Positions 4,973 through 42,323 of a DNA stretch of 64,000 bases are shown one piece after another. The stretch covers positions 310,001 through 374,000 of the forward strand of contig NZ_FNVS01000001.1 of assembly GCF_900108035.1 (NCBI RefSeq), read 5' to 3'. The notes under the pieces were generated by a model that saw only the letters and a program-made list of their open reading frames with translations, made no database searches and was not told the DNA's origin. Made by a program: the position numbers and the translations under genes. How positions within the stretch are numbered: the first letter of the stretch is position 1; every line of letters starts with the position of its first letter. The stretch comes from Parabacteroides chinchillae (lineage in GTDB: Bacteria; Bacteroidota; Bacteroidia; Bacteroidales; Tannerellaceae).

Positions 4973-6175
4973 TTATGATTCGGATAAAGGCAATGTAAAC
5001 CAAAAAACAGAACCTTTTCCCTCATCCGACGCAACTCCTATTTGCCCCCCCAGAAACTTGATAATCATTTTACAGATAGCCAAACCAAGTCCTGTACCTT
5101 GCTGGAAACTATCCAACTTTACAAAACGATTAAACACAATCCGGCAATCTTCGGCAGAAATACCTATCCCGGTATCGGCAACAGAGACATAAACGTCATC
5201 TATCCTTTTCTTATAGGAAATAGTAATAGAACCTTTTTTAGTAAACTTAATAGCATTCGAAAGGAAATTAAAAAGCACCTGCATAATCCGTTGTTCATCG
5301 GTATACAATACCAATGAAGGATGTTCAAAATTAAAAATAAGCTCCACTCCCGGATTCACCCGCACAACATGTACATTATATGCATCCATACATATTCCTT
5401 TCAAATCCGCATCGGCAAAATTATAATCCATTTTGCCGGATTCGATTTTCGAAAAGTCCAAAATATCATCAACAAGCTGCAGTAGCAAAGCATTATTCTT
5501 ATTGATTACTTCCATATACGAATCGCGCTCTTCATGATCGTCCGCTTCGGCCAATAAACTTGAAAAACCTACGATTGCATTTAACGGAGTACGTATTTCA
5601 TGGCTCATATTTGCCAGGAAAGCCGATTTCAGCCTATCGGCCTCGCGTGCTTCCACCAAAGCCATTTCACTTTCATATTCTTTGGTTATATCAGACAGGT
5701 AATAAACAACACAACTAGGTGTTCCGTCGGCATTATACCTGTAAGGTTGTACATTCGCTTCCACCCAAAGTACCTGTCCTTCAAATATTCTACGATACTT
5801 TATACTATAACTTTTTATTTCACCCCGGATCAGGCGTTCAAAATGATCATAAAACACATTTTGCCTGTCATCGGGATGAATAGCATTCAAAAAATCTTCT
5901 TTATTCCTGAAAGGCTTTATTCGTAAACGCGAGAATTTAGTATGTTCGTTTAAGTCATAATCAACGTGAATCAGATCATGCTGTACGTCATATTCCCAGA
6001 TCAAAGAATCACCAATATTAACAGCAGCTTTTAAAATAGCAATCTTCTCCTGGTCTCGTTCCGCTCCTATGGACTCAGGCATTGTATGCATCTGTATATT
6101 CCGGTTTTTTTCTTCTAATGATACTAGATTACCGGTCAAATTTTTCTTTGACTCGTCTTGATGTTTATTCAGCAT
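4973..6175 (-). CDS. PAS-domain sensor histidine kinase (orphan, cytoplasmic)
   Basis: A two-component sensor kinase of about 400 aa. An N-terminal coiled segment is followed by a PAS/PAC region (about residues 45-170, ending VVYYLSDITKEYE). Next come a HisKA domain with the phosphorylated His in NMSHEIRTPLN (H192), and a HATPase domain with N box NFLSNAIKF, G1 box DTGIG and G2 box GTGLGLA. The frame stays open upstream to 6331, but residues there look like untranslated leader and overlap a terminator. The ATG at 6175 is therefore preferred: it has a GAGGGTG upstream and a promoter-like TAnnTTTG about 27 nt away. No membrane segment or partner response regulator is visible nearby, so signal and target are unknown. 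Confidence 0.85.
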   Translation of the reverse strand: MLNKHQDESKKNLTGNLVSLEEKNRNIQMHTMPESIGAERDQEKIAILKAAVNIGDSLIWEYDVQHDLIHVDYDLNEHTKFSRLRIKPFRNKEDFLNAIHPDDRQNVFYDHFERLIRGEIKSYSIKYRRIFEGQVLWVEANVQPYRYNADGTPSCVVYYLSDITKEYESEMALVEAREADRLKSAFLANMSHEIRTPLNAIVGFSSLLAEADDHEERDSYMEVINKNNALLLQLVDDILDFSKIESGKMDYNFADADLKGICMDAYNVHVVRVNPGVELIFNFEHPSLVLYTDEQRIMQVLFNFLSNAIKFTKKGSITISYKKRIDDVYVSVADTGIGISAEDCRIVFNRFVKLDSFQQGTGLGLAICKMIIKFLGGQIGVASDEGKGSVFWFTLPLSES

Positions 6176-6201
6176 ACATTTCACCCTCTTATTATTGGGC
6201 A

Positions 6202-6209
6202 CAAAAATA
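6202..6209 (-). promoter_or_regulatory. Candidate -7 element for the histidine kinase
   Basis: On the minus strand this reads TATTTTTG, a match to the Bacteroidota -7 consensus TAnnTTTG. It sits about 27 nt before the preferred ATG. No clear -33 TTTG was found. Confidence 0.4.
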
Positions 6210-6283
6210 AATAAATATTTGAATGCACAGCTATTATAAATCATCAATATGCAATAAAAATCAACACTTTTCACAAATACAAG

Positions 6284-6315
6284 ATAAAATAAAAAAGCGA
6301 ACCCGTCAGGTTCGC
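6284..6315 (-). terminator. Intrinsic terminator of the serine operon
   Basis: Perfect 7-bp GC-rich stem GCGAACC/GGTTCGC (6297-6303 with 6309-6315) with a 5-nt loop. On the minus strand it is followed by a T-rich run (TTTTTTATTTT). It lies just downstream of the DUF1015 gene. Confidence 0.8.
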
Positions 6316-6338
6316 CTTTCCTATATCTCATTCTCTTG

Positions 6339-7586
6339 TCAAGACAATTTATGAATTACAAGACCTGATCGTAGCTTCGGTTCAAACCACGTAGTTTTCG
6401 GAGGCATAATGTTTCCGGTATCTGCTATATCCATTAATTGTTTCATCGTAACAGGATATAAAGCTAAAGCCACTTTCATCTCTCCGCTGTCTACCCGGCG
6501 TTTTAATTCTCCCAAACCGCGGATACCGCCTACAAAGTCGATACGTTTGTCGGAACGGAGGTCTTTGATACCCAGAATCTCATTCAATATCAGATCAGAA
6601 GATATAGTTACATCCAACACCCCTATCGGATCATTATCGTTGTATGTTCCCTGTTTTGCAGTTAAAGAATACCACTTTCCGTCCAGATAAAGGGAAAAGT
6701 TATGTAAAGCATTCGGTTTATAAATATCCGTACCCTTTTCTTCCACTATGAAATTACCGGATAGTTTTTCAAGGAACTGAGCCTCTGTCAGACCATTCAA
6801 ATCTTTTACTACACGATTATAGTCTATAATGGTAAGCTGGTTGGCAGGAAAACAAACTGCCATAAAATAATTGTATTCTTCATCACCACAGTGGTTCGGA
6901 TTCTGTTTTGCCTTATCCGCTCCCACTAAAGCGGCAGCAGCGGAGCGATGATGGCCATCTGCAATATAAAGAGCCGGCATAGCCGAAAACAGCTCGGTAA
7001 TACGGGCTATATCGGCCTCATCGTCTATAATCCAGAATGTATGTCCGAAACCATCCAACTGGGTAACAAAATCATATTCAGGCTGTCTGGCTGTATATTT
7101 CTTTACAATAATATCCAGCTCTGCATTATCAGGATATGCAAAGAATACAGGTTCAATATTGGCATTATTCACACGGACATGCTTCATACGGTCTTCTTCC
7201 TTATCGCGGCGTGTCAATTCATGTTTCTTGATGATACCGTTCATATAGTCGGGAACATAAGCACCAACAACCAAACCGTATTGCGTCTTGCCGTTCATTG
7301 TCTGTGCATACACATAATAGCATTCTTTCTCATCCTGAACCAACCATCCTTTATCCTGAAATTTCCGGAAATTCTCGGCTGCCTTTTCATATACAGCAGG
7401 ATCATGTTCGTCTGTACCGACAGGAAAATCTATCTCCGGTTTTATAATATGATATAAAGATTTCTCATTACCTTTCGCCTCTTCTCTCGCTTCCTCCGAA
7501 TTTAAAACATCATAAGGACGAGAAGCTACTTGTCCGATCAAATCTTTGGGCGGACGAATACCTTTAAAAGGTTTAATTTTTGCCAT
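6339..7586 (-). CDS. DUF1015 family protein of the serine operon
   Basis: 415 aa soluble protein of the DUF1015 family, whose function is not established. Visible conserved features are the N-terminal block KIKPFKGIRPPKDL, a basic/acidic KHELTRRDKEEDR segment (121-133) and a His-rich ADGHHRSAAA motif (209-218), all typical of the family. It is the last gene of serC-serA-DUF1015, 51 nt after serA, and is closed by a terminator. The constant link with serine genes suggests a role in serine or phosphoserine metabolism; no phosphoserine phosphatase gene (serB) is seen in the window. That link is inference. No signal peptide or membrane segment is seen. Confidence 0.85.
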   Translation of the reverse strand: MAKIKPFKGIRPPKDLIGQVASRPYDVLNSEEAREEAKGNEKSLYHIIKPEIDFPVGTDEHDPAVYEKAAENFRKFQDKGWLVQDEKECYYVYAQTMNGKTQYGLVVGAYVPDYMNGIIKKHELTRRDKEEDRMKHVRVNNANIEPVFFAYPDNAELDIIVKKYTARQPEYDFVTQLDGFGHTFWIIDDEADIARITELFSAMPALYIADGHHRSAAAALVGADKAKQNPNHCGDEEYNYFMAVCFPANQLTIIDYNRVVKDLNGLTEAQFLEKLSGNFIVEEKGTDIYKPNALHNFSLYLDGKWYSLTAKQGTYNDNDPIGVLDVTISSDLILNEILGIKDLRSDKRIDFVGGIRGLGELKRRVDSGEMKVALALYPVTMKQLMDIADTGNIMPPKTTWFEPKLRSGLVIHKLS

Positions 7587-7637
7587 AATTCACGGTGTTT
7601 TTAATGAATATAGAAATCCGGCTTTTCATATTATGAA

Positions 7638-8558
7638 TTAATTCACTCTGAATTTCTGATTACCTGTACAAAGGAAATCTTCTATTTGTCTTGCAGCAGC
7701 AATACCGGCATTTATATTTGCCTCGGCAGTCTGTGCCCCCATCTTTTTGGGAGTTCCGAAATAACGTTCGGGATACTTGGCAGCCAATTCTGCATCGATA
7801 GCCGGTTTAATATCTGTCATATATTTGAAATCAGGACGTTCTTCAAACATTTTAGCCAAGCCTGCCTCATCTATCACCTCCTTACGGGCCGTATTTACAA
7901 TAATAGCTCCTTTGGGCATCGAGTTCATCAATTCAAAGTTGATAGAATTCTTTGTTTCGGCAGTTGCCGGAATATGTAATGATACAATCTGGCATTCCTT
8001 GAAAAGATCGGCAGTAGATGCAACAGCCCTTATACCGTCATTCTCTATTACCTGAGCATGACAATGGGCATCATATGCACAAATATCCATACCGAAGCCT
8101 TTAGCTATACGGCCTACATTACGTCCCACATTGCCATAAGCCAAAATACCCAGCTTCTTCCCTTTCAACTCCGTACCGGAAGCTCCGTTATAGAAATTGC
8201 GCACGGCATATACCAACATACCGAATACCAGTTCAGCTACAGCATTCGAATTCTGCCCCGGCGTATTCATCACACAAACCTTATGGGCTGTTGCAGCAGC
8301 CAGGTCTATATTATCATAACCAGCACCTGCACGGACTACTATTTTCAGTTTTTTTGCTGCATCAAACACTTCGGCATCTATAATATCACTACGGACAATC
8401 ATAGCCTCCACATCCTTCACAGCATCCAATAACTGTTGCTTTTCCGTATACTTTTCCAGCAGGACTAATTCGTCGCCTGCTCCTTCTACTACTTCACGAA
8501 TACCTTTCACAGCTACCGCTGCGAAAGGTTTGTCTGTTGCCACTAATACTTTTGCCAT
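7638..8558 (-). CDS. serA: D-3-phosphoglycerate dehydrogenase, short lysine-type form
   Basis: 306 aa NAD-dependent enzyme oxidising 3-phosphoglycerate to 3-phosphohydroxypyruvate, first step of serine synthesis. The NAD-binding loop is AYGNVGRNVG (about 140-149), with NTARKEVIDE near 222-231. It lacks the C-terminal ACT regulatory domain of longer forms. Where most PGDHs have TPHxG with a catalytic His, this protein has TPKKMG, so Lys replaces His, as described for the Bacteroides/Entamoeba type of PGDH. The ATG at 8558, 2 nt after the serC stop, is preferred over an upstream TTG (8564) that overlaps that stop. Serine feedback is unlikely to act through an ACT domain here. Confidence 0.93.
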   Translation of the reverse strand: MAKVLVATDKPFAAVAVKGIREVVEGAGDELVLLEKYTEKQQLLDAVKDVEAMIVRSDIIDAEVFDAAKKLKIVVRAGAGYDNIDLAAATAHKVCVMNTPGQNSNAVAELVFGMLVYAVRNFYNGASGTELKGKKLGILAYGNVGRNVGRIAKGFGMDICAYDAHCHAQVIENDGIRAVASTADLFKECQIVSLHIPATAETKNSINFELMNSMPKGAIIVNTARKEVIDEAGLAKMFEERPDFKYMTDIKPAIDAELAAKYPERYFGTPKKMGAQTAEANINAGIAAARQIEDFLCTGNQKFRVN

Positions 8559-32713: not shown

Positions 32714-35638
32714 ATGAATGAGACAATACTGAACGGACTACTAAATCTGTTTGCCATTTTTGCATCGTTGGCAAGAATTGGGACGGAACAAGCACGCCAA
32801 GCTGTACACACTTATCTTTCCAGCCATTTCGGAATCCGTTCACACAAAGAATATATCGAATTATACGACGAGTTGCAAAGTGTATATAATGATCCTGATT
32901 TTGATATCGATAAGGAAAATGTAATTATTAATGTATGCACGCAACTAAAACCTAAGTTAATGGCAGAAGAACAAATATTGCTGTTACTCAGGTTTATGGA
33001 ATTTGCCCATAGTAACAGCGAAGGATTCGCCGATAATCTATCCGTTTTCAGAAAGATCTCCTCGATATTCAACATCAGTTCAGAAGAATATGATACGCTA
33101 CTCGCATTCGTAACCGGTAGTTACTCACCCTATATACTGACAATTAGCAATGACCCGCTTTCTAACAATGACAATCACATACAGCGTAAAGGGTTGGAAG
33201 GTGAAATACGCGTATTGCAGTTATCCGGTTTCGACAGACTGATTTTCACCTATTATGGAAACAGCCAGGTATTTATGAATGACATACCTGCCACTGCCGG
33301 CATATTCTACAGTTGGCAACGAAGCAGTGTCATCAAAAGTCCGTTATTTCTTCCGGTTTATTATAGCGACGTACAAGAAGCATTCAACCGAAACGAACAT
33401 AACGAACATATCGTGCTGGCCGGACGCGATATTGATTTCCATTTTAAAAACAGCGAAAACGGATTGCATAATTTCTCATTCAACCTCGAATCCGGACAAT
33501 TAGTGGCCATTATGGGAGGAAGTGGGGTTGGTAAATCCACCCTGCTCAGTATCCTTAACGGGAACATCATTCCTCAGCAAGGTTCTATCTGTTTGAACGG
33601 ACATCCTTTGAGTGATGAGAATTGTAAGCGACTGATAGGTTTTGTGCCTCAGGATGATTTATTGATTGAAGAATTAACCGTATTCCAAAATCTCTGGTAC
33701 ACGGCAAAGCTATGTTTTGCCAATCTGAATGACAAAAAGATAGAAGAAAAAGTAAACTCTATTCTCAATGATTTGGATTTATTGAAAATCAAATCATTGG
33801 AAGTAGGCTCTCCTATACGGAAAACAATCAGCGGAGGACAACGGAAACGATTAAACATCGCATTGGAGTTAATACGTGAACCGGCAATCTTATATTTAGA
33901 TGAACCCACATCCGGGCTTTCGTCTTCCGATTCGGAAAAAGTGATGATGCTTTTAAAAGAACAGACACACCGGGGGAGATTAGTTGTTGTGAACATCCAT
34001 CAGCCATCGTCAGAGATATATAAATTGTTTGACCGTCTATGGTTGCTCGACACAGGAGGTTATCCTATTTACGATGGAAACCCGATTGAAGCCATCACAT
34101 ACTTTAAACGAGTTGCCAATTACACAGACCAGGACATCAGTGTCTGCAGTACATGCGGTAACGTAAATCCCGAATTGATTCTGAACATTATAGATGCCAA
34201 AAAGATCGACGACACGGGTAATCAAACAAATATCCGCAAACTGACAGCAAAAGAATGGCACGAACTCTATTTAGCATCCAGACCGGAATTCAACAGTCCC
34301 CAGGTTCTGCCTTTACCTCCAAACAGACAGCAAAAGCCGTCCGCCTGGAAGCAATTTCTCATTTTCCTGGAAAGAAATATTAAAACCAAACTGACAAACA
34401 AGCAATACTTATGCATTGCTTTGCTGGAAGCTCCGTTGCTTGCCGTAATTGTGGCTTTGCTCACCCGCTACGAGACAGATGAAGGCTACACTTTGCTTAC
34501 CAATAAAAACTTGGTAACTTACCTGTTCATGTCTGTTATTGTTGCCACATTTATCGGAATGAGTATTAGTGCGGAAGAAATAATAAAAGACAAGACATTG
34601 TTGAAAAGGGAACGCTTCTTACGGTTAAGCCGTCCAAGCTATCTCATTTCCAAGATGTTTTTCCTGTTCTGTATATCTGCCATACAAAGTCTCTTGTTTA
34701 TTTTGGTAGGAAATACACTGATTGGGATCGGATGGGAAATGTTTTTTATCTGGTGGATCATCCTGTGGGCAACCTCTTTCCTTGCGAACCTGACAGGATT
34801 AATCTTATCACAAACACTAAACACAATTGTAGCCATATACATTACGATCCCGCTTCTGCTTATCCCGCAAATATTGTTATGCGGGCTAGTCGTTAAGTTC
34901 GATGATTTAAGTAAACAGGCTGCCAACCGCAACATCGTGCCGCTTATCGGAGAAATCATACCTTCCCGCTGGGCATTTGAAGCATTGGCTGTTGAGCAAT
35001 TCTGCGACAATGCGTATAATCAATCCTTATTCTATATTGAAAAAGAGAAATTTATCTCACAGTATTATCAGAACATCCATTTACCGGAAGTAAGAAATTT
35101 AGTACAACAAACAGAGTTATCCGATAGTGGAAAAAAAGACAAGATAAAAACCATTGAAAACGAATTGTTAGTTCTAGGGCGAGCAGCCAGAATAGAACCA
35201 TATTCATCAAAAGACAGCTACAATGCCTATTTAAATAAAGCAGAAAAAGCATTGAAAACAAGATCAGACAATTTCACCGCTTTATTAGGTAAAGTTCAAA
35301 GAGAAATTATTAATGAGAAAGGAGCCGACTGGTTCGCCAACCTTAAAAAGGAGCATCACAATGAAGCATTGGAAGAGCTGGTACTGAATACAACAAGCAA
35401 CCGGCTTTACAAAGAAGCCCATCATAGAATTTATCCGAAAATAGGACAAATATACATGGAACCTGACAATAATTGGGGACGCGCACCATTCTACAGCTAT
35501 GAGAAAAAAGTAGCCGGAATCCTGTTTTCTACTTTTTCGTTTAATTTATTAATGTTAGTAATCTTTGGTTTATTGGTAATTATATCTATCTTCGCAGAGT
35601 TTCCAGGCAAGTATTTAAACAAGAACAACGACTATTAA
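32714..35638 (+). CDS. ABCG-like ABC transporter (TerB-like N-terminus, ATPase and ABC-2 permease in one chain)
   Basis: 974 aa. Residues about 1-140 form an acidic helical domain resembling TerB. A linker follows, then an ABC ATPase with Walker A MGGSGVGKSTLLS near 267, signature TISGGQRKRLNIAL near 372 and Walker B ILYLDEPTSGLSS. The C-terminal half is a permease with helices around 570-770 and one more near 945-970, separated by a long hydrophilic loop. ATPase before permease in one chain, with the signature ISGGQRKR, is the ABCG (White) half-transporter layout. The substrate is unknown. A lipoprotein gene follows after 33 nt and may be a functional partner. Confidence 0.85.
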   Translation: MNETILNGLLNLFAIFASLARIGTEQARQAVHTYLSSHFGIRSHKEYIELYDELQSVYNDPDFDIDKENVIINVCTQLKPKLMAEEQILLLLRFMEFAHSNSEGFADNLSVFRKISSIFNISSEEYDTLLAFVTGSYSPYILTISNDPLSNNDNHIQRKGLEGEIRVLQLSGFDRLIFTYYGNSQVFMNDIPATAGIFYSWQRSSVIKSPLFLPVYYSDVQEAFNRNEHNEHIVLAGRDIDFHFKNSENGLHNFSFNLESGQLVAIMGGSGVGKSTLLSILNGNIIPQQGSICLNGHPLSDENCKRLIGFVPQDDLLIEELTVFQNLWYTAKLCFANLNDKKIEEKVNSILNDLDLLKIKSLEVGSPIRKTISGGQRKRLNIALELIREPAILYLDEPTSGLSSSDSEKVMMLLKEQTHRGRLVVVNIHQPSSEIYKLFDRLWLLDTGGYPIYDGNPIEAITYFKRVANYTDQDISVCSTCGNVNPELILNIIDAKKIDDTGNQTNIRKLTAKEWHELYLASRPEFNSPQVLPLPPNRQQKPSAWKQFLIFLERNIKTKLTNKQYLCIALLEAPLLAVIVALLTRYETDEGYTLLTNKNLVTYLFMSVIVATFIGMSISAEEIIKDKTLLKRERFLRLSRPSYLISKMFFLFCISAIQSLLFILVGNTLIGIGWEMFFIWWIILWATSFLANLTGLILSQTLNTIVAIYITIPLLLIPQILLCGLVVKFDDLSKQAANRNIVPLIGEIIPSRWAFEALAVEQFCDNAYNQSLFYIEKEKFISQYYQNIHLPEVRNLVQQTELSDSGKKDKIKTIENELLVLGRAARIEPYSSKDSYNAYLNKAEKALKTRSDNFTALLGKVQREIINEKGADWFANLKKEHHNEALEELVLNTTSNRLYKEAHHRIYPKIGQIYMEPDNNWGRAPFYSYEKKVAGILFSTFSFNLLMLVIFGLLVIISIFAEFPGKYLNKNNDY

Positions 35639-35671: not shown

Positions 35672-36502
35672 ATGAAGAAGAGTTTTGTAAGTCTGCTAAC
35701 CGTGGCAGCATTTTTATTCGGAATGGCTTCTTGTAATAGCAGTGCAAAGAAAGCTGAAGCCGAAGCTCAGACAGAACAAGAGGCTGTTATAGCCGGAGAA
35801 GTCTCAAAAAACCTGCTTACCGAAGAACTTAAAGTAGAAGTTTCCCAGTTTCTTAAAGACATGCCCGAATCTGATTTAGCTTACAAACTGGCAACCGGAG
35901 AAGTAACGGTATCTGTTGCCAATACAGATTTTATGTTGCCCGTAAGCAAAGCTTCAGAACTGACAACACAGGCTCAGAAAGCGCGCGCATGCGGTATGTA
36001 CTTTGCAGATCTGAATATTCTGAAAGCAATGAAAAAGCCGACGACTGACGTTGAAAACGTTTTAGTAAAGCTGACTACAGACCTGAATATTCCATTCGTT
36101 ATCGATATCATGAAAGAATCTGCTCCTGCCAATGCAAGCAAGGAAGAAGTTAATGCTTTTATGAAGGCTCAGGAAGATAAACTGATCGATGCTATGATGG
36201 AAAACGACAAAGCAGACATCGAAATCGAACTATTAGGCGGAATGTCGGTTGAATATGCTTATTTATTAGCTAATCCGGGCTTAGTTGTAAAGGGCGACGC
36301 TATCTCTGCAGGTTTAAGCGACAATATGATCAAACGTCTGGATACACTACAGCAGATTGTAGGCGATTTATCTAAGTATTATCCTGATTTGAGCCAACTG
36401 GGTGAAACTATTGCTCCGCTGAAAGAAATGGTAGTTTCTGTAAATGCTGCTCGTGCCGCTCAAAAAGACATCGAAGCTATGCGTACCAACTTATTGAAGT
36501 AA
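35672..36502 (+). CDS. Putative lipoprotein downstream of the ABCG-like exporter
   Basis: 276 aa with a lipoprotein signal peptide; the lipobox FGMASC puts the acylated Cys at 21. A short Ala/Glu-rich segment (AKKAEAEAQTEQE) precedes a mostly helical, acidic body with no known domain that I recognise. The Met content is noticeable (GGMSVEYAYLL, DAMMENDKAD). It lies 33 nt after the ABC transporter and ends at a terminator, so the two probably form one operon. The role is unknown; a periplasm-facing accessory part of the exporter is one possibility. Confidence 0.8.
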   Translation: MKKSFVSLLTVAAFLFGMASCNSSAKKAEAEAQTEQEAVIAGEVSKNLLTEELKVEVSQFLKDMPESDLAYKLATGEVTVSVANTDFMLPVSKASELTTQAQKARACGMYFADLNILKAMKKPTTDVENVLVKLTTDLNIPFVIDIMKESAPANASKEEVNAFMKAQEDKLIDAMMENDKADIEIELLGGMSVEYAYLLANPGLVVKGDAISAGLSDNMIKRLDTLQQIVGDLSKYYPDLSQLGETIAPLKEMVVSVNAARAAQKDIEAMRTNLLK

Positions 36503-36528: not shown

Positions 36529-36565
36529 GGAAGCCGGTTGAGATTCAGCCGGCTTTCTTTATTTA
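36529..36565. terminator. Terminator between convergent genes
   Basis: Stem AAGCCGG/CCGGCTT (36531-36537 with 36549-36555), followed by TTCTTTATTT on the plus strand. It overlaps the last codons of the minus-strand methyltransferase gene. Confidence 0.7.
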
Positions 36566-37743
36566 CGGCACTTTACCAACACCTTCACGCCGTCCGCCAG
36601 CGTAGTGGCAAAAAGATAGACCTCACCGCCATCGGCTATTTTTGTCCGCATACGGAGTTCGGCTACGGATAGAGGGAAATTGCGCACTGTGATATTGGCT
36701 TGCGGGATCGTTTTAGACAGCGCCTTACATTGTTTATTACTGAACGGTATCACCTCATCCACCACAAAACGGCGGCCGGGGAAATCGTCCCTAAGGTTAT
36801 CCGACGTATATAAATGGCTACTTGCATGCAGCTTCTCCAGTCCAAAGCGGAAAGCTGTCATCCGGAACGCACCAGCTTTCAGTATCGAGGCATTCGGTTC
36901 ATATAAATAGTGCTTTACCCGATCCGCCTGATACAGGTTCACACCCCGCTCGTCATGCCACGCATATGAGAACAATTCTTTCCGTCCGCTACCTGCAAAA
37001 TTTACACAAACGATCTGCGGACTATCCTTTTTATTTTCTCTCTCCACTACAAAAAGCAACTCTTTGCATTCATTCTTTACTGAAATAACATGCACTTCTG
37101 TAGTTCCGGGAAGCAAATCCAACGTAAACTGAATATCCGCCATAGGAGACAGTTTGGCAATCACCTTCGGAGCACGTTCAAGCAAGGACGGCAACAACTT
37201 TGGCAAATCAGGCTCGCAATCGGGCAAGGCAAACACCCGCTTATTACTCTCTCCACGCCGGGCAGGGTCGATATAAAAGACATCCGCCGGAGGCAATTGC
37301 AATAAATATTCGGCAATGTCGGCATTAATAACCTCTATATTATCGGCTCCCAATACTTCAAAGTTATGCTTTGCCACCTCACAGTAGGCGGCAAAACGTT
37401 CTATATAGGTAAGTTTCTTCACCTTCCGGGAGAAGAAATAACTATCTATTCCTAATCCACCTGTTAAATCGCACAAACATTCACTTGCTTCTACCAGCTC
37501 TTGTTTATACGAAGCCGTAAGCTCGGACGAACATTGTTCGACAGCTATCCGAGCAGGAAATAGCAATTCATCATTCTCATACCACGAAGGCAACTTTTCA
37601 CGTATCTGTCTGCGTGCTGCTATTTGTTCTATCAAAAAGGGAACATTCTGCGCGGAATACTTAGACGCAGACAACAACAAGCGCGACAGATCATCTGCCG
37701 CATGCTCCCGGATAAATTGTTTCTGTTTTTCATTCAACTTCAT
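36559..37743 (-). CDS. THUMP-like domain SAM-dependent methyltransferase
   Basis: 394 aa protein of a Bacteroidota group of class I methyltransferases with a C-terminal THUMP-like domain. The SAM site is CDLTGGLGIDSYF (about 88-100) with YIERFAAYCEVA as the acidic loop, and a DPAR motif (FYIDPARRG) occupies the catalytic position where N6-adenine or RNA methylases have (N/D)PPY. The C-terminus (residues about 280-394) carries the THUMP-like region, ending LFATTLADGVKVLVKC. It probably modifies RNA, but the target is not known. Its ATG overlaps the upstream Sel1 gene stop by 4 nt, so it is the last gene of a three-gene operon. Confidence 0.8.
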   Translation of the reverse strand: MKLNEKQKQFIREHAADDLSRLLLSASKYSAQNVPFLIEQIAARRQIREKLPSWYENDELLFPARIAVEQCSSELTASYKQELVEASECLCDLTGGLGIDSYFFSRKVKKLTYIERFAAYCEVAKHNFEVLGADNIEVINADIAEYLLQLPPADVFYIDPARRGESNKRVFALPDCEPDLPKLLPSLLERAPKVIAKLSPMADIQFTLDLLPGTTEVHVISVKNECKELLFVVERENKKDSPQIVCVNFAGSGRKELFSYAWHDERGVNLYQADRVKHYLYEPNASILKAGAFRMTAFRFGLEKLHASSHLYTSDNLRDDFPGRRFVVDEVIPFSNKQCKALSKTIPQANITVRNFPLSVAELRMRTKIADGGEVYLFATTLADGVKVLVKCRK

Positions 37744-38963
37744 TGTGCAACCTCTCCTTCCAGACGTTTCAGTGCATTCTGTGCAAATTCATATCCATCC
37801 GCCGCCGATAATTTATATAAACGTATGGCTTCGTCCATATCTTTCTCCACTCCTTTTCCAAATTCGTACATATCCGCCAGATTGCCCATAGCCCACGTAT
37901 CACCCTGAACTGCAGACAAACTATACAAACGGAAAGCTTCGTTCATATCCGCAGCAACACCCCGCCCATATTCATACATAACTCCCAGAACAGACTGAGC
38001 ACGCTTGTCACCCTGCATAGCTGCCTTTTTATACCATTTAGCTGCCAGGATATAGTTTTGAGCAACTTCTTTCCCTGCATCGTATGTCAATCCTAATTCA
38101 TATTGGGCATCCATGTCTCCGGTGTTGGCCTTATACATCAATTCCTGCAACCCGGCAGAAATCGCACCGCAGGTAAGAACCTGAACATTCATAGTACATG
38201 GATTAGTGCCGCCGTATTCCAACTCCCGAATGCATTTTCTTGCGAGAAGATCAACATCCAGTTCCTTTGCGAAGCAAGACAAACGACATGTATCTTCGCA
38301 CACTCTTCCACCGCCGCAACTATTATATATAGGACTTACACAAACATAGTAGTCTCCTCCCTGCCGGATGGACTTTATAAGACACGTCAACTGAGACAAA
38401 TCTATCTCTTCTATGTCCAGAATATTTGAAAACAGATGAAGGCTTGTCTGTCTTTCGGGGAAGTCTTCTTTGCATAAATCTTCTATATATTTACAAACCG
38501 TCCGAACCTCTGCATCCGGGAAAAAGAGACGTGCATGCAAAGCTGCCCGCTTCAAAGAAAGTTCCGATGGTTCTATCAAAGTTATTGAAGTAACGTTTGC
38601 CGCAAGCCCATTCAATTGCAAGTAATCGGCATAAGCCATTACTTCCAGTCCCTGTCCGCATCCCCAAGCTACAATATCCACCTTATTTTCCCAGAATATG
38701 GGAGGTAGCTGATCAAAGGCGTAGTTCAGTTTTGCCAGATGCATCTTTCCATACGAATAAAGATAATAGGCAAGAAGTATTTCCGAGCCGAGCATATCTC
38801 GTCCGTTCCCCAGACGTCTGTAAAGATCAGCCTTATCTTCTTCGCTCAGTTTGCCTACAAAATCCACCACCAACTGGCGAACCTTGTCAAAAGTAGGTCT
38901 GCCTATCGTTCGCAGCATATAGGCATAAACCGTATTCTCTTCCAATAGCAATTGTGCATCCAT
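37740..38963 (-). CDS. Methyltransferase-like protein with C-terminal Sel1 repeats
   Basis: About 407 aa with two parts. Residues about 80-270 look like a Rossmann methyltransferase, with VAWGCGQGLEVMAYADYL as a probable SAM loop and TLIEPSELSLKRAALHA as the acidic strand. The C-terminal 140 residues hold about four Sel1-type repeats (GDMDAQYELGLTYDAGKEV, GDKRAQSVLGVMYEYGRGV, GDTWAMGNLADMYEFGKGV). A Cys-rich CGGGRVCEDTCRLSC lies between. The ATG at 38963, just after the DUF1848 stop and preceded by AGAGGGAC, is preferred; a farther in-frame start (39026) would overlap DUF1848 by 46 nt. The combination is unusual and its substrate unknown. Confidence 0.72.
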   Translation of the reverse strand: MDAQLLLEENTVYAYMLRTIGRPTFDKVRQLVVDFVGKLSEEDKADLYRRLGNGRDMLGSEILLAYYLYSYGKMHLAKLNYAFDQLPPIFWENKVDIVAWGCGQGLEVMAYADYLQLNGLAANVTSITLIEPSELSLKRAALHARLFFPDAEVRTVCKYIEDLCKEDFPERQTSLHLFSNILDIEEIDLSQLTCLIKSIRQGGDYYVCVSPIYNSCGGGRVCEDTCRLSCFAKELDVDLLARKCIRELEYGGTNPCTMNVQVLTCGAISAGLQELMYKANTGDMDAQYELGLTYDAGKEVAQNYILAAKWYKKAAMQGDKRAQSVLGVMYEYGRGVAADMNEAFRLYSLSAVQGDTWAMGNLADMYEFGKGVEKDMDEAIRLYKLSAADGYEFAQNALKRLEGEVAQ

Positions 38964-38980
38964 GTCCCTCTCATTTGCGT

Positions 38981-40003
38981 TTAACGTCCGGTAATCGTTT
39001 CCGAATACGGATTTTGCTGATGACAACGCCAGTTTGCCAGCGCCTTCTCCTTCGAACTGTTAGCATAGCAGTAGGCACAAAGATGCGGACAGGTATTATA
39101 CTCTCCGATATCTTTACTGGTAATACACCCGCAATGCAGGCGTTGTCCTTTATCTTTATTGTCTCTTGTTTTTCGTATTATATCCTCCGGATGAAACAGA
39201 TCGCCCGGAATACACTCCACCCCCAAATGCTCCATCAACACTTTATCCTCCGAGAAGTAGCGAATCATCAGATCATCGTCTACACACTTATTCTGATATA
39301 TATCATAATCTTCTTCCAAAGATATTTCTTCTGCACAGGTAGCCACATCATAGTTCCACTTTTCATTCAGAAGATGAACGCCTTTGGCAAAACAAAGCAT
39401 ATCCGCTTCGGTAAATTCGCGGTAGAGAAAGCCCTCACGATCCAGATTGGCCGCGACTTTCCGGTAGACCGAAATATCGGCATAACTAAACACCAGCTTG
39501 TCAGTATATCCATGCAATTGGTTGCCAACCACGCGTACACGCTCCAACAAATCATCTACATCCATCCGGTCGGATAAAACCAATGGATCAAAACGCCAGA
39601 TCACTTTTCCTTTTCCCAGCACATCCGTCAAACTGCGAAACGTGGCAATACGTTCTTCCAGTGAAGGCAAATGAGGTTCCAGGCCGCTTCCTTCATAATT
39701 ATTTAAGGTGAACTGTATGTAACAATGTATGCCTCTCCGTCTTAATTCCTCCAGATACGGCAACAACGGAGCCGGGTTCTTCGACCAGAAAACAATTACC
39801 CGCACGTCCCGGTAAGACACGTACGACCGTACGCCATTGAATGGATTCATCCAGGCGGAATATCCCTTTTGCAAACGACTGAAGAACCAATCCGTGTAAA
39901 AAGCCGGAATATCTGTCGCCCGGCTGGCAGACACGATTACGGGAGCCAGCGCATCCGCCGTTTCCCCATTCTCCAATCTTATTTTCACCTTATTCCATGC
40001 CAT
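38981..40003 (-). CDS. DUF1848 family putative Fe-S protein
   Basis: 340 aa protein of the DUF1848 family. N-terminal VSASRATDIPAFYTDWF and the middle VIVFWSKNPAPLLPYL, IQFTLNNYEGSGLEP and WRFDPLVLSDRM are family blocks. The C-terminus has a Cys cluster, LHCGCITSKDIGEYNTCPHL followed closely by CAYCYANSS, resembling the CxxCxYC arrangement of Fe-S or radical-SAM-like proteins although the order differs. The function is not established. It heads the operon with the two methyltransferase-like genes. A promoter-like palindrome lies 30-58 nt upstream. Confidence 0.82.
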   Translation of the reverse strand: MAWNKVKIRLENGETADALAPVIVSASRATDIPAFYTDWFFSRLQKGYSAWMNPFNGVRSYVSYRDVRVIVFWSKNPAPLLPYLEELRRRGIHCYIQFTLNNYEGSGLEPHLPSLEERIATFRSLTDVLGKGKVIWRFDPLVLSDRMDVDDLLERVRVVGNQLHGYTDKLVFSYADISVYRKVAANLDREGFLYREFTEADMLCFAKGVHLLNEKWNYDVATCAEEISLEEDYDIYQNKCVDDDLMIRYFSEDKVLMEHLGVECIPGDLFHPEDIIRKTRDNKDKGQRLHCGCITSKDIGEYNTCPHLCAYCYANSSKEKALANWRCHQQNPYSETITGR

Positions 40004-40033
40004 CCTATCCTGGTCATTACAACAGTTGTAAAT

Positions 40034-40061
40034 ACAAAAGTAATCTTTTTATTACTTTTGT
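40034..40061. promoter_or_regulatory. Palindrome with divergent -7 elements, upstream of DUF1848
   Basis: Perfect 11-bp inverted repeat ACAAAAGTAAT/ATTACTTTTGT (40034-40044 with 40051-40061). Each arm contains TACTTTTG, a -7 match, facing opposite ways. The minus-facing copy lies about 32 nt before the DUF1848 ATG and is the likely promoter; the palindrome could also be an operator or a terminator. Confidence 0.5.
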
Positions 40062-40135
40062 ACGCTATTTATTTGCCTTCAAGTTAGTAAAGCCGTATAT
40101 CTTTTTCATTCCCCCAGATATGTTTTCCCCGGACA

Positions 40136-40187
40136 AAACTTTTGTTTCATCAGGGAGAAACTTTTGTTTCGTCCTAATAAAACTTTT
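40136..40187 (+). repeat. Three AAACTTTT repeats at 22-nt spacing
   Basis: AAACTTTTGTTTC occurs at 40136-40148 and 40158-40170, and a shortened AAACTTTT at 40180-40187: exact 22-nt spacing. The block is also framed by GGAC and GTCC. Confidence 0.6.
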
Positions 40188-40224
40188 AAGACATTTAATA
40201 AACCAGGAAGAGAGTTGACTGACC

Positions 40225-40276
40225 AAGCAAGACATTCCCGTACTTCAAAGAACGATACGGCAAATCATTTCTGATA
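40225..40276 (+). repeat. 52-bp direct repeat, left copy (hepT 3'-end fragment)
   Basis: Identical over 52 nt to 40971-41022, the 3' end of the intact hepT gene. In the matching frame it reads KQDIPVLQRTIRQIISD and then diverges, running to a TAA at 40297-40299. An in-frame TGA (40216-40218) just upstream prevents expression as a larger protein. Confidence 0.9.
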
Positions 40277-40306
40277 TAACCATAGAACCTATCGAATAAG
40301 AACCTG

Positions 40307-40336
40307 AACTATTTGGTAATTCCAAAAATAGTTTGG
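40307..40336 (+). promoter_or_regulatory. Candidate operator before the MntA-HepT pair
   Basis: Near-palindromic AACTATTTGG/CCAAAAATAGTT, overlapping a second symmetric core CCAAAAATAGTTTGG, 34 nt before the mntA ATG. Toxin-antitoxin operons often autoregulate from such sites; binding here is inference. Confidence 0.35.
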
Positions 40337-40369
40337 ATATTTGTATCTGTACATCAGCTTATTTTGAAG

Positions 40370-40669
40370 ATGAAAACGACAGCCGAATATATATCCATCC
40401 TGAAAGAATACATGCAGCAAAATGCAGGCAAGTACGGCATTTCGCACATGGGAATATTTGGATCCGTAGCACGAGGAGAACAAAAAGAAGGGAGCGATGT
40501 AGATATTTATTACCAGGCAGATAATACTCCTACTCTATCAATTATAGGTCAAATCCAAAATGACTTGGAAAGACTGCTGGAACGCCCTGTAGATCTTGTA
40601 CGCATCAGAGATAAGATGAATAAATTATTGCTAAAAGAAATACAAGATGAAGGAATTGCAATACAATAA
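40370..40669 (+). CDS. mntA: MntA-type nucleotidyltransferase antitoxin
   Basis: 99 aa minimal nucleotidyltransferase. The active-site motif GSVARGE (31-37) followed by SDVD (42-45) is the classic GSxAR...DxD pattern of MNT proteins, which AMPylate and silence their partner HEPN toxin in type VII toxin-antitoxin systems. The ATG at 40370 is chosen over an earlier ATG (40313) because the extra N-terminal residues do not fit the family and overlap the candidate operator. It overlaps hepT by 23 nt, and the pair lies within a 52-bp direct repeat. Confidence 0.88.
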   Translation: MKTTAEYISILKEYMQQNAGKYGISHMGIFGSVARGEQKEGSDVDIYYQADNTPTLSIIGQIQNDLERLLERPVDLVRIRDKMNKLLLKEIQDEGIAIQ

Positions 40670-41042
40670 AGAATGGGTTATCGATACATTGAATAACATC
40701 GATATATCCATCAATCATGTTCTAAGACGTACATCTTCCCTCAGCTCTGTTAACGACTTTCTGGAAACACCTTCAGGTATAGATTTACTGGACAGCGTTT
40801 GCATGCGCCTTCAGGTTATAGGTGAAATGGTTAAGAACCTCGATAAAATAACCGAACAGAAATTATTAATACAATATCCTGAAATAAACTGGAAAAGCAT
40901 TATGAGAATGAGAGACATCATTTCTCACCACTATTTTGAAATTGATGCCGAAGTTATTTTCGAGAGCATTAAGCAAGACATTCCCGTACTTCAAAGAACG
41001 ATACGGCAAATCATTTCTGATAATTCTACTGCAAATATCTAA
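40647..41042 (+). CDS. hepT: HepT-like HEPN ribonuclease toxin (DUF86)
   Basis: 131 aa all-helical HEPN protein. The catalytic R-x4-H-x-Y motif is present as RDIISHHY (R89, H94, Y96), so it appears active. HepT toxins cleave RNA and are neutralised when MntA adds AMP to the tyrosine. It overlaps mntA by 23 nt. Its last 17 codons lie in the 52-bp direct repeat, whose other copy sits upstream of mntA. The C-terminal tail SDNSTANI differs from the tail of the remnant. Confidence 0.9.
   Translation: MKELQYNKEWVIDTLNNIDISINHVLRRTSSLSSVNDFLETPSGIDLLDSVCMRLQVIGEMVKNLDKITEQKLLIQYPEINWKSIMRMRDIISHHYFEIDAEVIFESIKQDIPVLQRTIRQIISDNSTANI
40971..41022 (+). repeat. 52-bp direct repeat, right copy (inside hepT)
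   Basis: Identical to 40225-40276, with start points 746 nt apart. The two copies bracket the mntA gene and most of hepT. Confidence 0.9.
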
Positions 41043-41053
41043 ATATAATATTG

Positions 41054-41085
41054 TATATTTGTCCTTTGGTTTACGACCGGTAAAC
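41054..41085 (+). promoter_or_regulatory. Promoter with a small palindrome at the start site
   Basis: TATATTTG (41054-41061) matches the -7 consensus. Directly after it lies GTTTAC-GACCG-GTAAAC (41069-41085), covering the expected transcription start. This may be an operator for the polyamine-type dehydrogenase gene. Confidence 0.45.
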
Positions 41086-41126
41086 TGTATATATATTAAC
41101 AATCAAGTTTAATTCTATTTAAGTAA

Positions 41127-42323
41127 ATGGGAAGAGTATTAGTTATTGGTGCTGGAGGCGTAAGTACCGTTGCTGTTAAGAAAATAGCGATGAATGCAGA
41201 TGTCTTTACCGACATTATGGTAGCAAGCCGTACGAAAAGTAAATGCGACAAGATTGCTGCAGATATTAAAAATGTAAAGGTACAGACAGCACAAGTGGAT
41301 GCAGACAACGTGGAAGAACTCGTTGCCCTGTTCAACTCCTTCAAACCTGATTTGGTTGTAAACCTGGCGCTGCCTTACCAAGACCTCTCCATCATGGATG
41401 CTTGTCTGGCTTACGGCGTCAGCTACCTCGACACGGCCAACTACGAACCGCTGGATGAGGCTAAATATGAATACAGCTGGCAATGGGCTTATAAGAAACG
41501 CTTTGAAGAAGCTGGCCTGACCGCTATTCTGGGATGCGGTTTCGATCCGGGCGTGACAGGCGTATATACAGCTTACGCAGCCAAGCATCATTTCAAAGAA
41601 ATGCAATATCTGGATATAGTAGACTGCAATGCCGGAGATCATCACAAGGCATTTGCCACTAACTTCAATCCGGAGATCAATATCCGCGAAATTACCCAGC
41701 GTGGTAAGTTCTACGAAAACGGAGAATGGAAAGAAACAGATCCGTTATCCGTGCATAAGGCATTAAACTATCCGGAAGTAGGACCCAAGGAATCATACCT
41801 GATGTATCACGAAGAACTGGAAAGTCTGGTTAAGAACTTCCCTACTATCAAACGCGCCCGCTTCTGGATGACCTTCGGACAGGAATATCTTACCCACCTG
41901 CGCGTGATACAGAATATCGGCATGGATAGTATAAAACCAATCTTGTATAACGGTGTGGAGATCGTTCCTATTCAGTTCCTGAAAGCCGTATTGCCTAATC
42001 CTGGAGATTTGGGAGAAAATTATACAGGACAGACTTCTATCGGTTGCCGTATTCGCGGTATCGGTAAAGACGGCAACGAGATTACCTACTACGTATATAA
42101 TAACTGCAGCCACGAAGCCGCCTACAAAGAAACAGGCGCACAAGGCGTAAGCTACACTACCGGCGTACCGGCTATGATCGGAGCCAAATTGTTTATGCAA
42201 GGCCTGTGGAAAAAGCCGGGCGTATGGAACGTAGAAGAATTCAATCCGGATCCATTCATGAAGGAACTGAATGAGCAAGGATTACCTTGGCACGAACAAT
42301 TCAATATTGATCTGGAACTATAA
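41127..42323 (+). CDS. Carboxynorspermidine/saccharopine dehydrogenase family protein
   Basis: 398 aa NAD(P)-dependent enzyme of the Lys1-like family; its closest remembered relatives are carboxynorspermidine/carboxyspermidine dehydrogenases of Bacteroidota, which condense aspartate semialdehyde with a diamine in spermidine synthesis. The Rossmann motif IGAGGVSTVAVKK is at 7-19. LGCGFDPGVTGVYTAYAAKH and YNNCSHEAAYKETGAQGVS are typical of this group. The matching decarboxylase gene is not in the window. A methyltransferase gene follows after 2 nt. Confidence 0.85.
   Translation: MGRVLVIGAGGVSTVAVKKIAMNADVFTDIMVASRTKSKCDKIAADIKNVKVQTAQVDADNVEELVALFNSFKPDLVVNLALPYQDLSIMDACLAYGVSYLDTANYEPLDEAKYEYSWQWAYKKRFEEAGLTAILGCGFDPGVTGVYTAYAAKHHFKEMQYLDIVDCNAGDHHKAFATNFNPEINIREITQRGKFYENGEWKETDPLSVHKALNYPEVGPKESYLMYHEELESLVKNFPTIKRARFWMTFGQEYLTHLRVIQNIGMDSIKPILYNGVEIVPIQFLKAVLPNPGDLGENYTGQTSIGCRIRGIGKDGNEITYYVYNNCSHEAAYKETGAQGVSYTTGVPAMIGAKLFMQGLWKKPGVWNVEEFNPDPFMKELNEQGLPWHEQFNIDLEL

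Follow-up and report, generated by a model that had tools for sequence, protein, structure and literature searches.

A recurring DUF1848 and methyltransferase-like gene pair in Parabacteroides chinchillae, tentatively proposed as the core of a bacterial conflict system

The locus

Three genes of Parabacteroides chinchillae, encoding a DUF1848 protein (gene 1), a methyltransferase-like protein with Sel1 repeats (gene 2) and a PG_1098-type methyltransferase (gene 3), raise the question of which of them work together, and on what. They lie in a stretch of 64,000 nucleotides, referred to here as the window (positions 310,001 to 374,000 of contig NZ_FNVS01000001.1, assembly GCF_900108035.1). A sequence-only reading of this DNA had regarded them as a multistep pathway, and its description of three tightly packed genes was confirmed by the coordinates: all are on the minus strand, with 17 nt between genes 1 and 2 (38964-38980) and a 4-nt overlap between genes 2 and 3 (37740-37743). 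Our analyses show that genes 1 and 2 are a real, recurring and modular pair, although the pairing is not obligate, and that gene 3 is a core gene and an ordinary neighbor that is not tied to them. The features discussed are the following; individual loci and genomes are identified by our L and G numbers.

38981..40003, minus strand: gene 1, 340 aa, DUF1848 protein and proposed permuted radical S-adenosylmethionine (radical-SAM) enzyme (PF08902, structural model, VIA-align)
39068..39091, minus strand: codons for CPHLCAYC, the CX3CX2C motif at residues 305-312 of gene 1 (sequence; cysteines invariant in 40 sequences)
37740..38963, minus strand: gene 2, 407 aa from the ATG at 38963, methyltransferase-like domain and Sel1 repeats
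38166..38963, minus strand: predicted METTL17/Rsm22-like methyltransferase domain of gene 2, about residues 1-266 (structural model and structure comparison)
37743..38111, minus strand: Sel1 repeats at the C-terminal end of gene 2, about residues 285-407, exchanged for other tails in relatives (Pfam, relatives)
36559..37743, minus strand: gene 3, 394 aa, PG_1098-type methyltransferase, core neighbor outside the pair (Pfam, PDB 3ll7, distribution)
37744..41126, no strand: in genome G257 a 178-nt gap takes the place of this stretch (comparison of gene order)

Genes 1 and 2 recur as a pair

The association of the two genes was clearest in an order sample of 198 genomes, in which the gene-2 domain was found in nine genomes and DUF1848 in 36, with both present in all nine (p 9e-8). 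Eight of these nine co-occurrences are on one contig within about 4 kb, and in the ninth (G067) the two genes are on separate contigs with a 141-nt end in common. Scanning named genomes identified 294 relatives of the gene-2 domain, of which the best 80 were kept and their loci read; these 80 include near-copies (L209 and L211) and overlap our other samples (L169 is G012, L202 is G067, L230 is G182, L243 is G077 and L246 is G222). Sixty of these best 80 have a DUF1848 gene on the same strand upstream within 6 kb or fused to the gene-2 domain (within 100 nt in 41, at 100-6000 nt in 16 and fused in three), four have another arrangement and one is at a contig end. The commonest gaps between the two genes are -4 nt (15 loci) and +1 nt (10 loci), and the fused proteins are those of L209, L211 and L237. 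The neighborhood conservation that the sequence-only reading had proposed to check is found for genes 1 and 2 and not for gene 3, which is beside DUF1848 in only two Parabacteroides genomes.

Several counts weigh against a fixed partnership. The remaining 15 of the 80 loci have no DUF1848 gene in at least 1.2 kb of visible sequence (two of them, L202 and L230, are contig breaks), and the association in a family sample of 123 genomes is weak (gene-2 domain in 21, DUF1848 in 44, both in 12, p 0.025). In the Tannerella group (g164) DUF1848 is without a match in nine of the 11 genomes that have the gene-2 domain. Similarly, among 62 DUF1848 loci, a subset of the hits in the order and family samples, 39 showed no listed partner within 6 kb on the same strand, some of them being near contig ends, and two of these 39 (L105 and L107) have a fused helicase-methyltransferase.

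The distribution of partners was also examined on a tree of 59 DUF1848 proteins, for which four of the 62 loci were dropped (<290 aa) and L053 was counted as paired from an abutting contig. The label for a gene-2 partner was clustered, with 10 changes compared to a mean of 14.3 in shuffled labels (none of 500 shuffles was as low), although even so it changes often, whereas the label for a second type of methyltransferase partner (see below) was not clustered (six changes, mean 5.8). Taken with the points against it, we judge it probable that genes 1 and 2 act together.

Some individual loci are of interest in their own right. L047 (G197) and L057 (G093) have close DUF1848 genes and the same downstream peptidase-like gene, with a gene-2 partner upstream in one and other genes in the other, which looks as if partners had been exchanged. 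In L105 and L107, from two Parabacteroides genomes, a protein of about 1630 aa directly follows DUF1848; that of L105, which was scanned, combines a NERD domain and a superfamily 1 (SF1) helicase with a C-terminal stretch that matches a methyltransferase model of PADLOC. L118, L119 and L303, on Parabacteroides chromosomes and a plasmid, have closely related DUF1848 genes that lack listed partners, each next to the same 337-aa protein, annotated in L303 as a DNA/RNA non-specific endonuclease. In the Tannerella group, L150-L153 encode a gene-2-domain protein of 1281-1297 aa, after which come a gene for a protein of 242-352 aa and a large conserved neighbor, with no DUF1848 nearby.

Gene 1 is predicted to be a radical-SAM-like enzyme

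Gene 1 matches PF08902 (DUF1848) over the full length of the model (E 1.1e-87, 294.6 bits with a cut-off of 30.5, model positions 1-262 of 262), and the cysteine cluster reported from the sequence was substantiated by an alignment of 40 DUF1848 sequences, in which seven cysteines are invariant. Three of them, C305, C309 and C312, form the CX3CX2C motif; the others are at 223, 240, 291 and 293, and seven such cysteines would be enough for a second cluster. The earlier suggestion of a possible iron-sulfur (Fe-S) protein gains support from this invariant motif and from the radical-SAM-like model described below, and gene 1 is likely an Fe-S enzyme. DUF1848 is present in Bacteroidota, in viral records and in plasmid records from cyanobacteria and archaea. 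Its Pfam entry notes radical-SAM-like cysteines. Among openly licensed PubMed Central (PMC) articles we found no paper on DUF1848 and nothing on its pairing with the gene-2 protein; a search there for permuted radical-SAM enzymes with the motif likewise returned no paper, and none of those listed for 2CompART dealt with that domain.

The predicted structure of gene 1 (predicted local distance difference test, pLDDT, 94.5; predicted template modeling score, pTM, 0.91) was compared by VIA-align with 989 of Foldseek's top chains. All 25 rows with Z of at least 8 (Z 8.1-9.4) are radical-SAM entries, as judged from entry titles except for 5wgg and 5why, which we take to be such entries. The top rows include Elp3, SuiB, spore photoproduct lyase, Mmp10, NifB, viperin, SkfB and pyruvate formate-lyase (PFL)-activating enzyme, and the first barrel from outside the superfamily is LeuA (Z 7.8). 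We consider it likely that gene 1 is a radical-SAM-like enzyme.

Other results pull in the opposite direction. A best Z of 7-8 is common in VIA-align for models without a clear match, and since the Z of 8-9 for gene 1 barely exceeds this stated background, the weight of the comparison rests on one superfamily filling the top rows. Foldseek by itself gave no match for gene 1 at E 0.001, with Elp3 chains at a probability of 0.97-0.99. Profile scans were conducted on native DUF1848 proteins and on proteins rearranged so that the C-terminal part came first: gene 1 scored 14.2 bits native and 16.4 bits rotated for PF04055, below the cut-off of 29.5, the DUF1848 protein of L133 scored 14.3 and 14.6 bits for the Pfam Radical_SAM family, radical-SAM rows in the NCBIfam scan of native and rotated proteins were weak only, and the PDB profile search gave no row for native DUF1848 and two unrelated rows for the rotated form.

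The position of the motif is unusual for a radical-SAM enzyme. It follows the barrel strands of the model (23-26 to 275-278) and is not near the N-terminus, behind the first barrel strand, as it is in radical-SAM enzymes. In addition, the aligned ranges of PFL-activating enzyme (chain from 57 or 60), NifB (from 73) and 5v1s start past the presumed place of the chain's own motif, and the PFL-activating-enzyme and NifB rows cover the gene 1 model up to residue 222. A motif past the barrel together with such row starts is the pattern expected of a circular permutation. Against this, the ranges for Elp3, spore photoproduct lyase, viperin and 5v1t start at or before the presumed place of the chain's own motif, so that aligned ranges alone cannot prove a permutation. 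The rotated-sequence tests gave no confirmation, and the proposal rests on the motif position and the structural model. We favor a circularly permuted barrel, and several ranges of the latter kind are the reason that we do not favor it more strongly.

Gene 2 has a predicted METTL17/Rsm22-like domain and an exchangeable tail

The description of gene 2 as methyltransferase-like with Sel1 repeats was borne out, the repeats by Pfam (E 7.9e-22) and the methyltransferase fold by the structural model (pLDDT 89.9); for residues 1-270 the Pfam scan gave no family at E 0.1. The best structural matches other than those to Sel1 proteins are entries of mitoribosomal small-subunit assembly, with 222-233 residues aligned: 6sgb_F1 (Z 17.9, 233 residues), 8csr_7 (Z 17.1) and 8d8l_0 (Z 15.8), followed by EgtD (Z 15.0). 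The best row covers the methyltransferase fold and a helical N-terminal part at residues 19-281 of the model. METTL17, Rsm22 and, for 6SGB, SAF1 are given as related factors of these mitoribosomal particles in PMC9892005, and from the entries and this article we infer that the three matched chains are METTL17/Rsm22.

A second article (PMC11046306) describes METTL17 as carrying a [4Fe-4S] cluster and as linked to small-subunit rRNA, and reports that a glycine-rich motif is disrupted in yeast METTL17/Rsm22. Among gene-2 relatives the glycine-rich motif GCGQG is common. Gene 2 itself has the cysteines of CEDTCRLSC, and several cassette relatives carry other cysteine sets closer to the C-terminus. 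The four cluster-binding cysteines of METTL17 do not appear to be conserved in gene-2 relatives, with positions unshared across 23 sequences, and gene 2 matched no METTL17/Rsm22-type Pfam family at E 0.1 and no METTL17 chain at E 10.

The C-terminal part of the protein is swapped in relatives of the gene-2 domain. By Pfam it consists of Sel1 repeats in the window's protein and others, of BspA-type LRR_5 repeats in L052 and L177, and of DEAD helicases in the 1378-1725-aa proteins of L094, L100, L103 and L227; L048 has an SF1-type helicase by BLAST, and L049 has hardly any tail. L190 (4083-11651) encodes a protein of 2523 aa with an N-terminal gene-2 domain and no Pfam match at E 1.

Additional partners and the conflict context

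In a number of relatives further genes lie between DUF1848 and the methyltransferase. A YhcG nuclease is found there in L048 (by Pfam) and in L178, L180, L184, L195 and L234 (by BLAST), and an SF1 helicase with a 2CompART/2CompARG protein in L045, L046, L050, L051, L055, L099 and L102, the helicase frame of L099 being in two pieces. 2CompART is above its Pfam cut-off in three of 123, four of 198 and three of 395 genomes. All 10 of these loci are beside an SF1 helicase and nine of the 10 are beside or near DUF1848, which in G029 and G182 is seen only as an end at the contig edge. The tenth, G330, has the helicase and the ADP-ribosyltransferase (ART) without DUF1848 in the 18 kb read, and speaks against an obligate tie.

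A second cassette, consisting of another methyltransferase, a helicase, a 656-735-aa protein of no assigned kind and DUF1848, occurs in L061, L064, L111, L112, L121 and L128 (in L128 the 656-735-aa protein is in two pieces). The helicases of the two cassettes are homologous (99.9% in profile comparison), and by the same approach their methyltransferases are probably related (87.6%, E 3.5e-6). The second-cassette protein in the ART position was considered as an ART in L061, L064, L111 and L121 and rejected, having no Pfam 2CompART match and 6% in profile comparison. Two plasmid loci may be mentioned here. In L302 (Planktothrix, 5980-7847) DUF1848 is convergent with a 292-aa protein weakly resembling the second methyltransferase type (E 4e-4), and in L301 (Moraxella osloensis, 6881-7723) a 280-aa relative of the gene-2 domain lies about 3 kb from an annotated viperin-family antiviral radical-SAM gene.

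Gene 1 itself matches a PADLOC model, RTasDUF1848 (see below). Matches to defense models were more numerous near the pair, with 180 PADLOC families at E 1e-10 for 90 of 290 pair neighbors versus 43 for 90 of 141 neighbors of solitary DUF1848 genes used as a control (120-900 aa in both; families are counted, not proteins). The top family, PDC-S02, has four members, which are probably the four YhcG genes of the set, and AbiLi, PD-T4-4_A and NsnB were matched by three pair-neighbor members each, perhaps the same three. Viral contigs that carry the pair or a cassette are those of L250/L271 (one contig), L272, L252 and L253; the viral contig L249 has DUF1848 and a helicase, and other viral contigs have DUF1848 without these partners. 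Eight phage records and six plasmid records contain DUF1848. The swapped parts, patchy spread and neighbors suggest conflict with phages or other mobile elements. We regard the PADLOC, viral-contig, phage and plasmid evidence as suggestive, and the chances of a conflict role for the pair as about even.

Gene 3 and alternative explanations

Gene 3 was described from the sequence as a methyltransferase with a THUMP-like part and a DPAR motif, and this description stands: it matches PF22013 (E 3.6e-22, 78.4 bits, cut-off 27), PF18096 (E 4.2e-20, 71.8 bits, cut-off 26) and PDB 3ll7 (E 2.3e-85), and DPAR is present. A single pathway modifying RNA or a small molecule, in which gene 3 would be an indispensable third enzyme beside genes 1 and 2, would fit the close spacing and overlap in the window and the presence of the same three genes in G012 (P. 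bouchesdurhonensis). However, 37 of 38 Parabacteroides genomes contain gene 3 (including all 26 of good quality), compared to 20 of 38 for DUF1848 and eight of 38 for the gene-2 domain, and the window's genome and G012 are the only two in which it adjoins DUF1848; in L123 (G225, another genus) the two are about 4 kb apart. Co-occurrence in the order sample is at chance level (gene 3 in 44 genomes at E < 1e-25, DUF1848 in 36, shared by 10 with eight expected, p 0.25). In G257 a homologue of 41127-42323 is followed by a 178-nt gap, gene 3 and homologues of 35672-36502 and 32714-35638, and the genome has no match to DUF1848 or the gene-2 domain. At the place of this gap the window has genes 1 and 2 together with a nucleotidyltransferase (NTase)/HepT gene pair, which is also missing from the gap. 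Based on the distribution and the same flanks without genes 1 and 2 we rejected the three-gene pathway, which we consider highly improbable; of the multistep pathway first proposed, genes 1 and 2 remain as a unit and gene 3 does not.

Two other explanations retain the pair or its parts, and we view each as unlikely. The pair could modify a peptide or small molecule in housekeeping or metabolism, much as happens in the maturation of ribosomally synthesized and post-translationally modified peptides (RiPPs), with the repeats binding the substrate and no role in conflict. The RiPP maturases SuiB and SkfB are indeed among the best structural matches of gene 1, METTL17-like and small-molecule methyltransferases (EgtD) are close in Z for gene 2, and the 39 of 62 DUF1848 loci without listed partners are compatible with such a role, whereas the helicases, ADP-ribosyltransferase/glycohydrolase and YhcG nuclease of the cassettes and the defense-model matches among neighbors are not what it would lead one to expect, and no small precursor gene was noted beside the pair, although no search was aimed at one. 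Alternatively, DUF1848 could be an independent enzyme that travels with many gene sets, gene 2 being another passenger with no joint action. The same majority of partnerless loci, the gene-2-like proteins without DUF1848 in the Tannerella group and the closely related DUF1848 proteins on the tree, some of which have partner genes while others do not, favor this explanation, but it is at odds with the three fused proteins (two of them near-copies), the -4 or +1 nt gaps in 25 of 80 loci and the 9/9 co-occurrence in the order sample.

A proposed working of the pair

In the reading that we prefer, genes 1 and 2 make up a module of two genes, and the site that they occupy, next to the core gene 3, is variable. 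The pairing, fusions, swapped tails, predicted folds and a relative whose corresponding site lacks the module are direct results of this study; for the chemistry, target and defense role of the pair we put forward the following model. Gene 1 would be a radical-SAM-like enzyme, its barrel circularly permuted, with a cluster-binding CX3CX2C at the C-terminus, and gene 2 would have a class I METTL17/Rsm22-like methyltransferase domain, the exchanged C-terminal part of which probably picks the target or trigger. Gene 2 would dock on RNA or a ribosome, the repeats sensing or selecting, and gene 1 would perform radical chemistry on the docked target, with or without methylation by gene 2. In relatives, helicases, an ADP-ribosyltransferase/glycohydrolase or a YhcG nuclease are added to this module.

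That the module works as proposed we regard as an evenly balanced matter, while RNA or the ribosome as the target is a more tentative assignment. More tentative again is the composite picture of an undescribed bacterial conflict system, in which a permuted radical-SAM DUF1848 is joined by a METTL17/Rsm22-like methyltransferase that targets ribosomes or RNA, the recognition tails can be exchanged, and modules such as a helicase, an ADP-ribosyltransferase/glycohydrolase and a nuclease are optional. If DUF1848 is a permuted radical-SAM enzyme working with an Rsm22-like protein, a family function-less in the literature searched would acquire both a partner and a chemistry that can be tested, the radical-SAM barrel would prove to tolerate its cluster motif at the opposite end, and the mitoribosome checkpoint METTL17 would have a relative tied to a mobile, swappable bacterial system.

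Other features of the site

Just upstream of gene 1, on the plus strand at 40370-41042, are the NTase (PF18765, E 1.7e-14) and the HepT-like ribonuclease (PF01934, E 8e-20), likely a MntA/HepT toxin-antitoxin pair by their domain matches, homologues of which are in the same place in G012. Promoter-like sites (11 versus 11.2 in shuffles) and terminator-like sites (6 versus 4.0) are about equal to those in shuffled sequence.

Comparison with known systems

The known system closest to gene 1 is the radical-SAM superfamily (PF04055; Elp3, spore photoproduct lyase, SuiB, PFL-activating enzyme), which it resembles in the barrel fold of its model and in CX3CX2C and from which it differs in the place of the motif, four extra invariant cysteines and a non-significant sequence match. 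For these reasons we propose DUF1848 as a permuted relative that would work like radical-SAM enzymes, and do not file it as a member of the superfamily. Gene 1 also matches the PADLOC model RTasDUF1848 (DRT) (E 9.8e-38); in the window its partner is the methyltransferase-like protein instead, and by eye no reverse transcriptase was recognized among the genes next to gene 1. Gene 2 resembles METTL17/Rsm22, the mitoribosomal small-subunit assembly factors, in predicted fold, and is unlike them in its exchangeable repeat or helicase fusions, its pairing with DUF1848 and the lack of a significant sequence match. Gene 3, by comparison, is a plain relative of the PG_1098 family (PDB 3ll7), with no difference noted. 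As for 2CompART/2CompARG (PF22546, PF22545), these domains are in relatives part of four-gene cassettes with DUF1848 and the methyltransferase, whereas the window's version is without the cassette helicase and ADP-ribosyltransferase and consists of the DUF1848 and methyltransferase-like genes; the window's genome has no PF22546 match.

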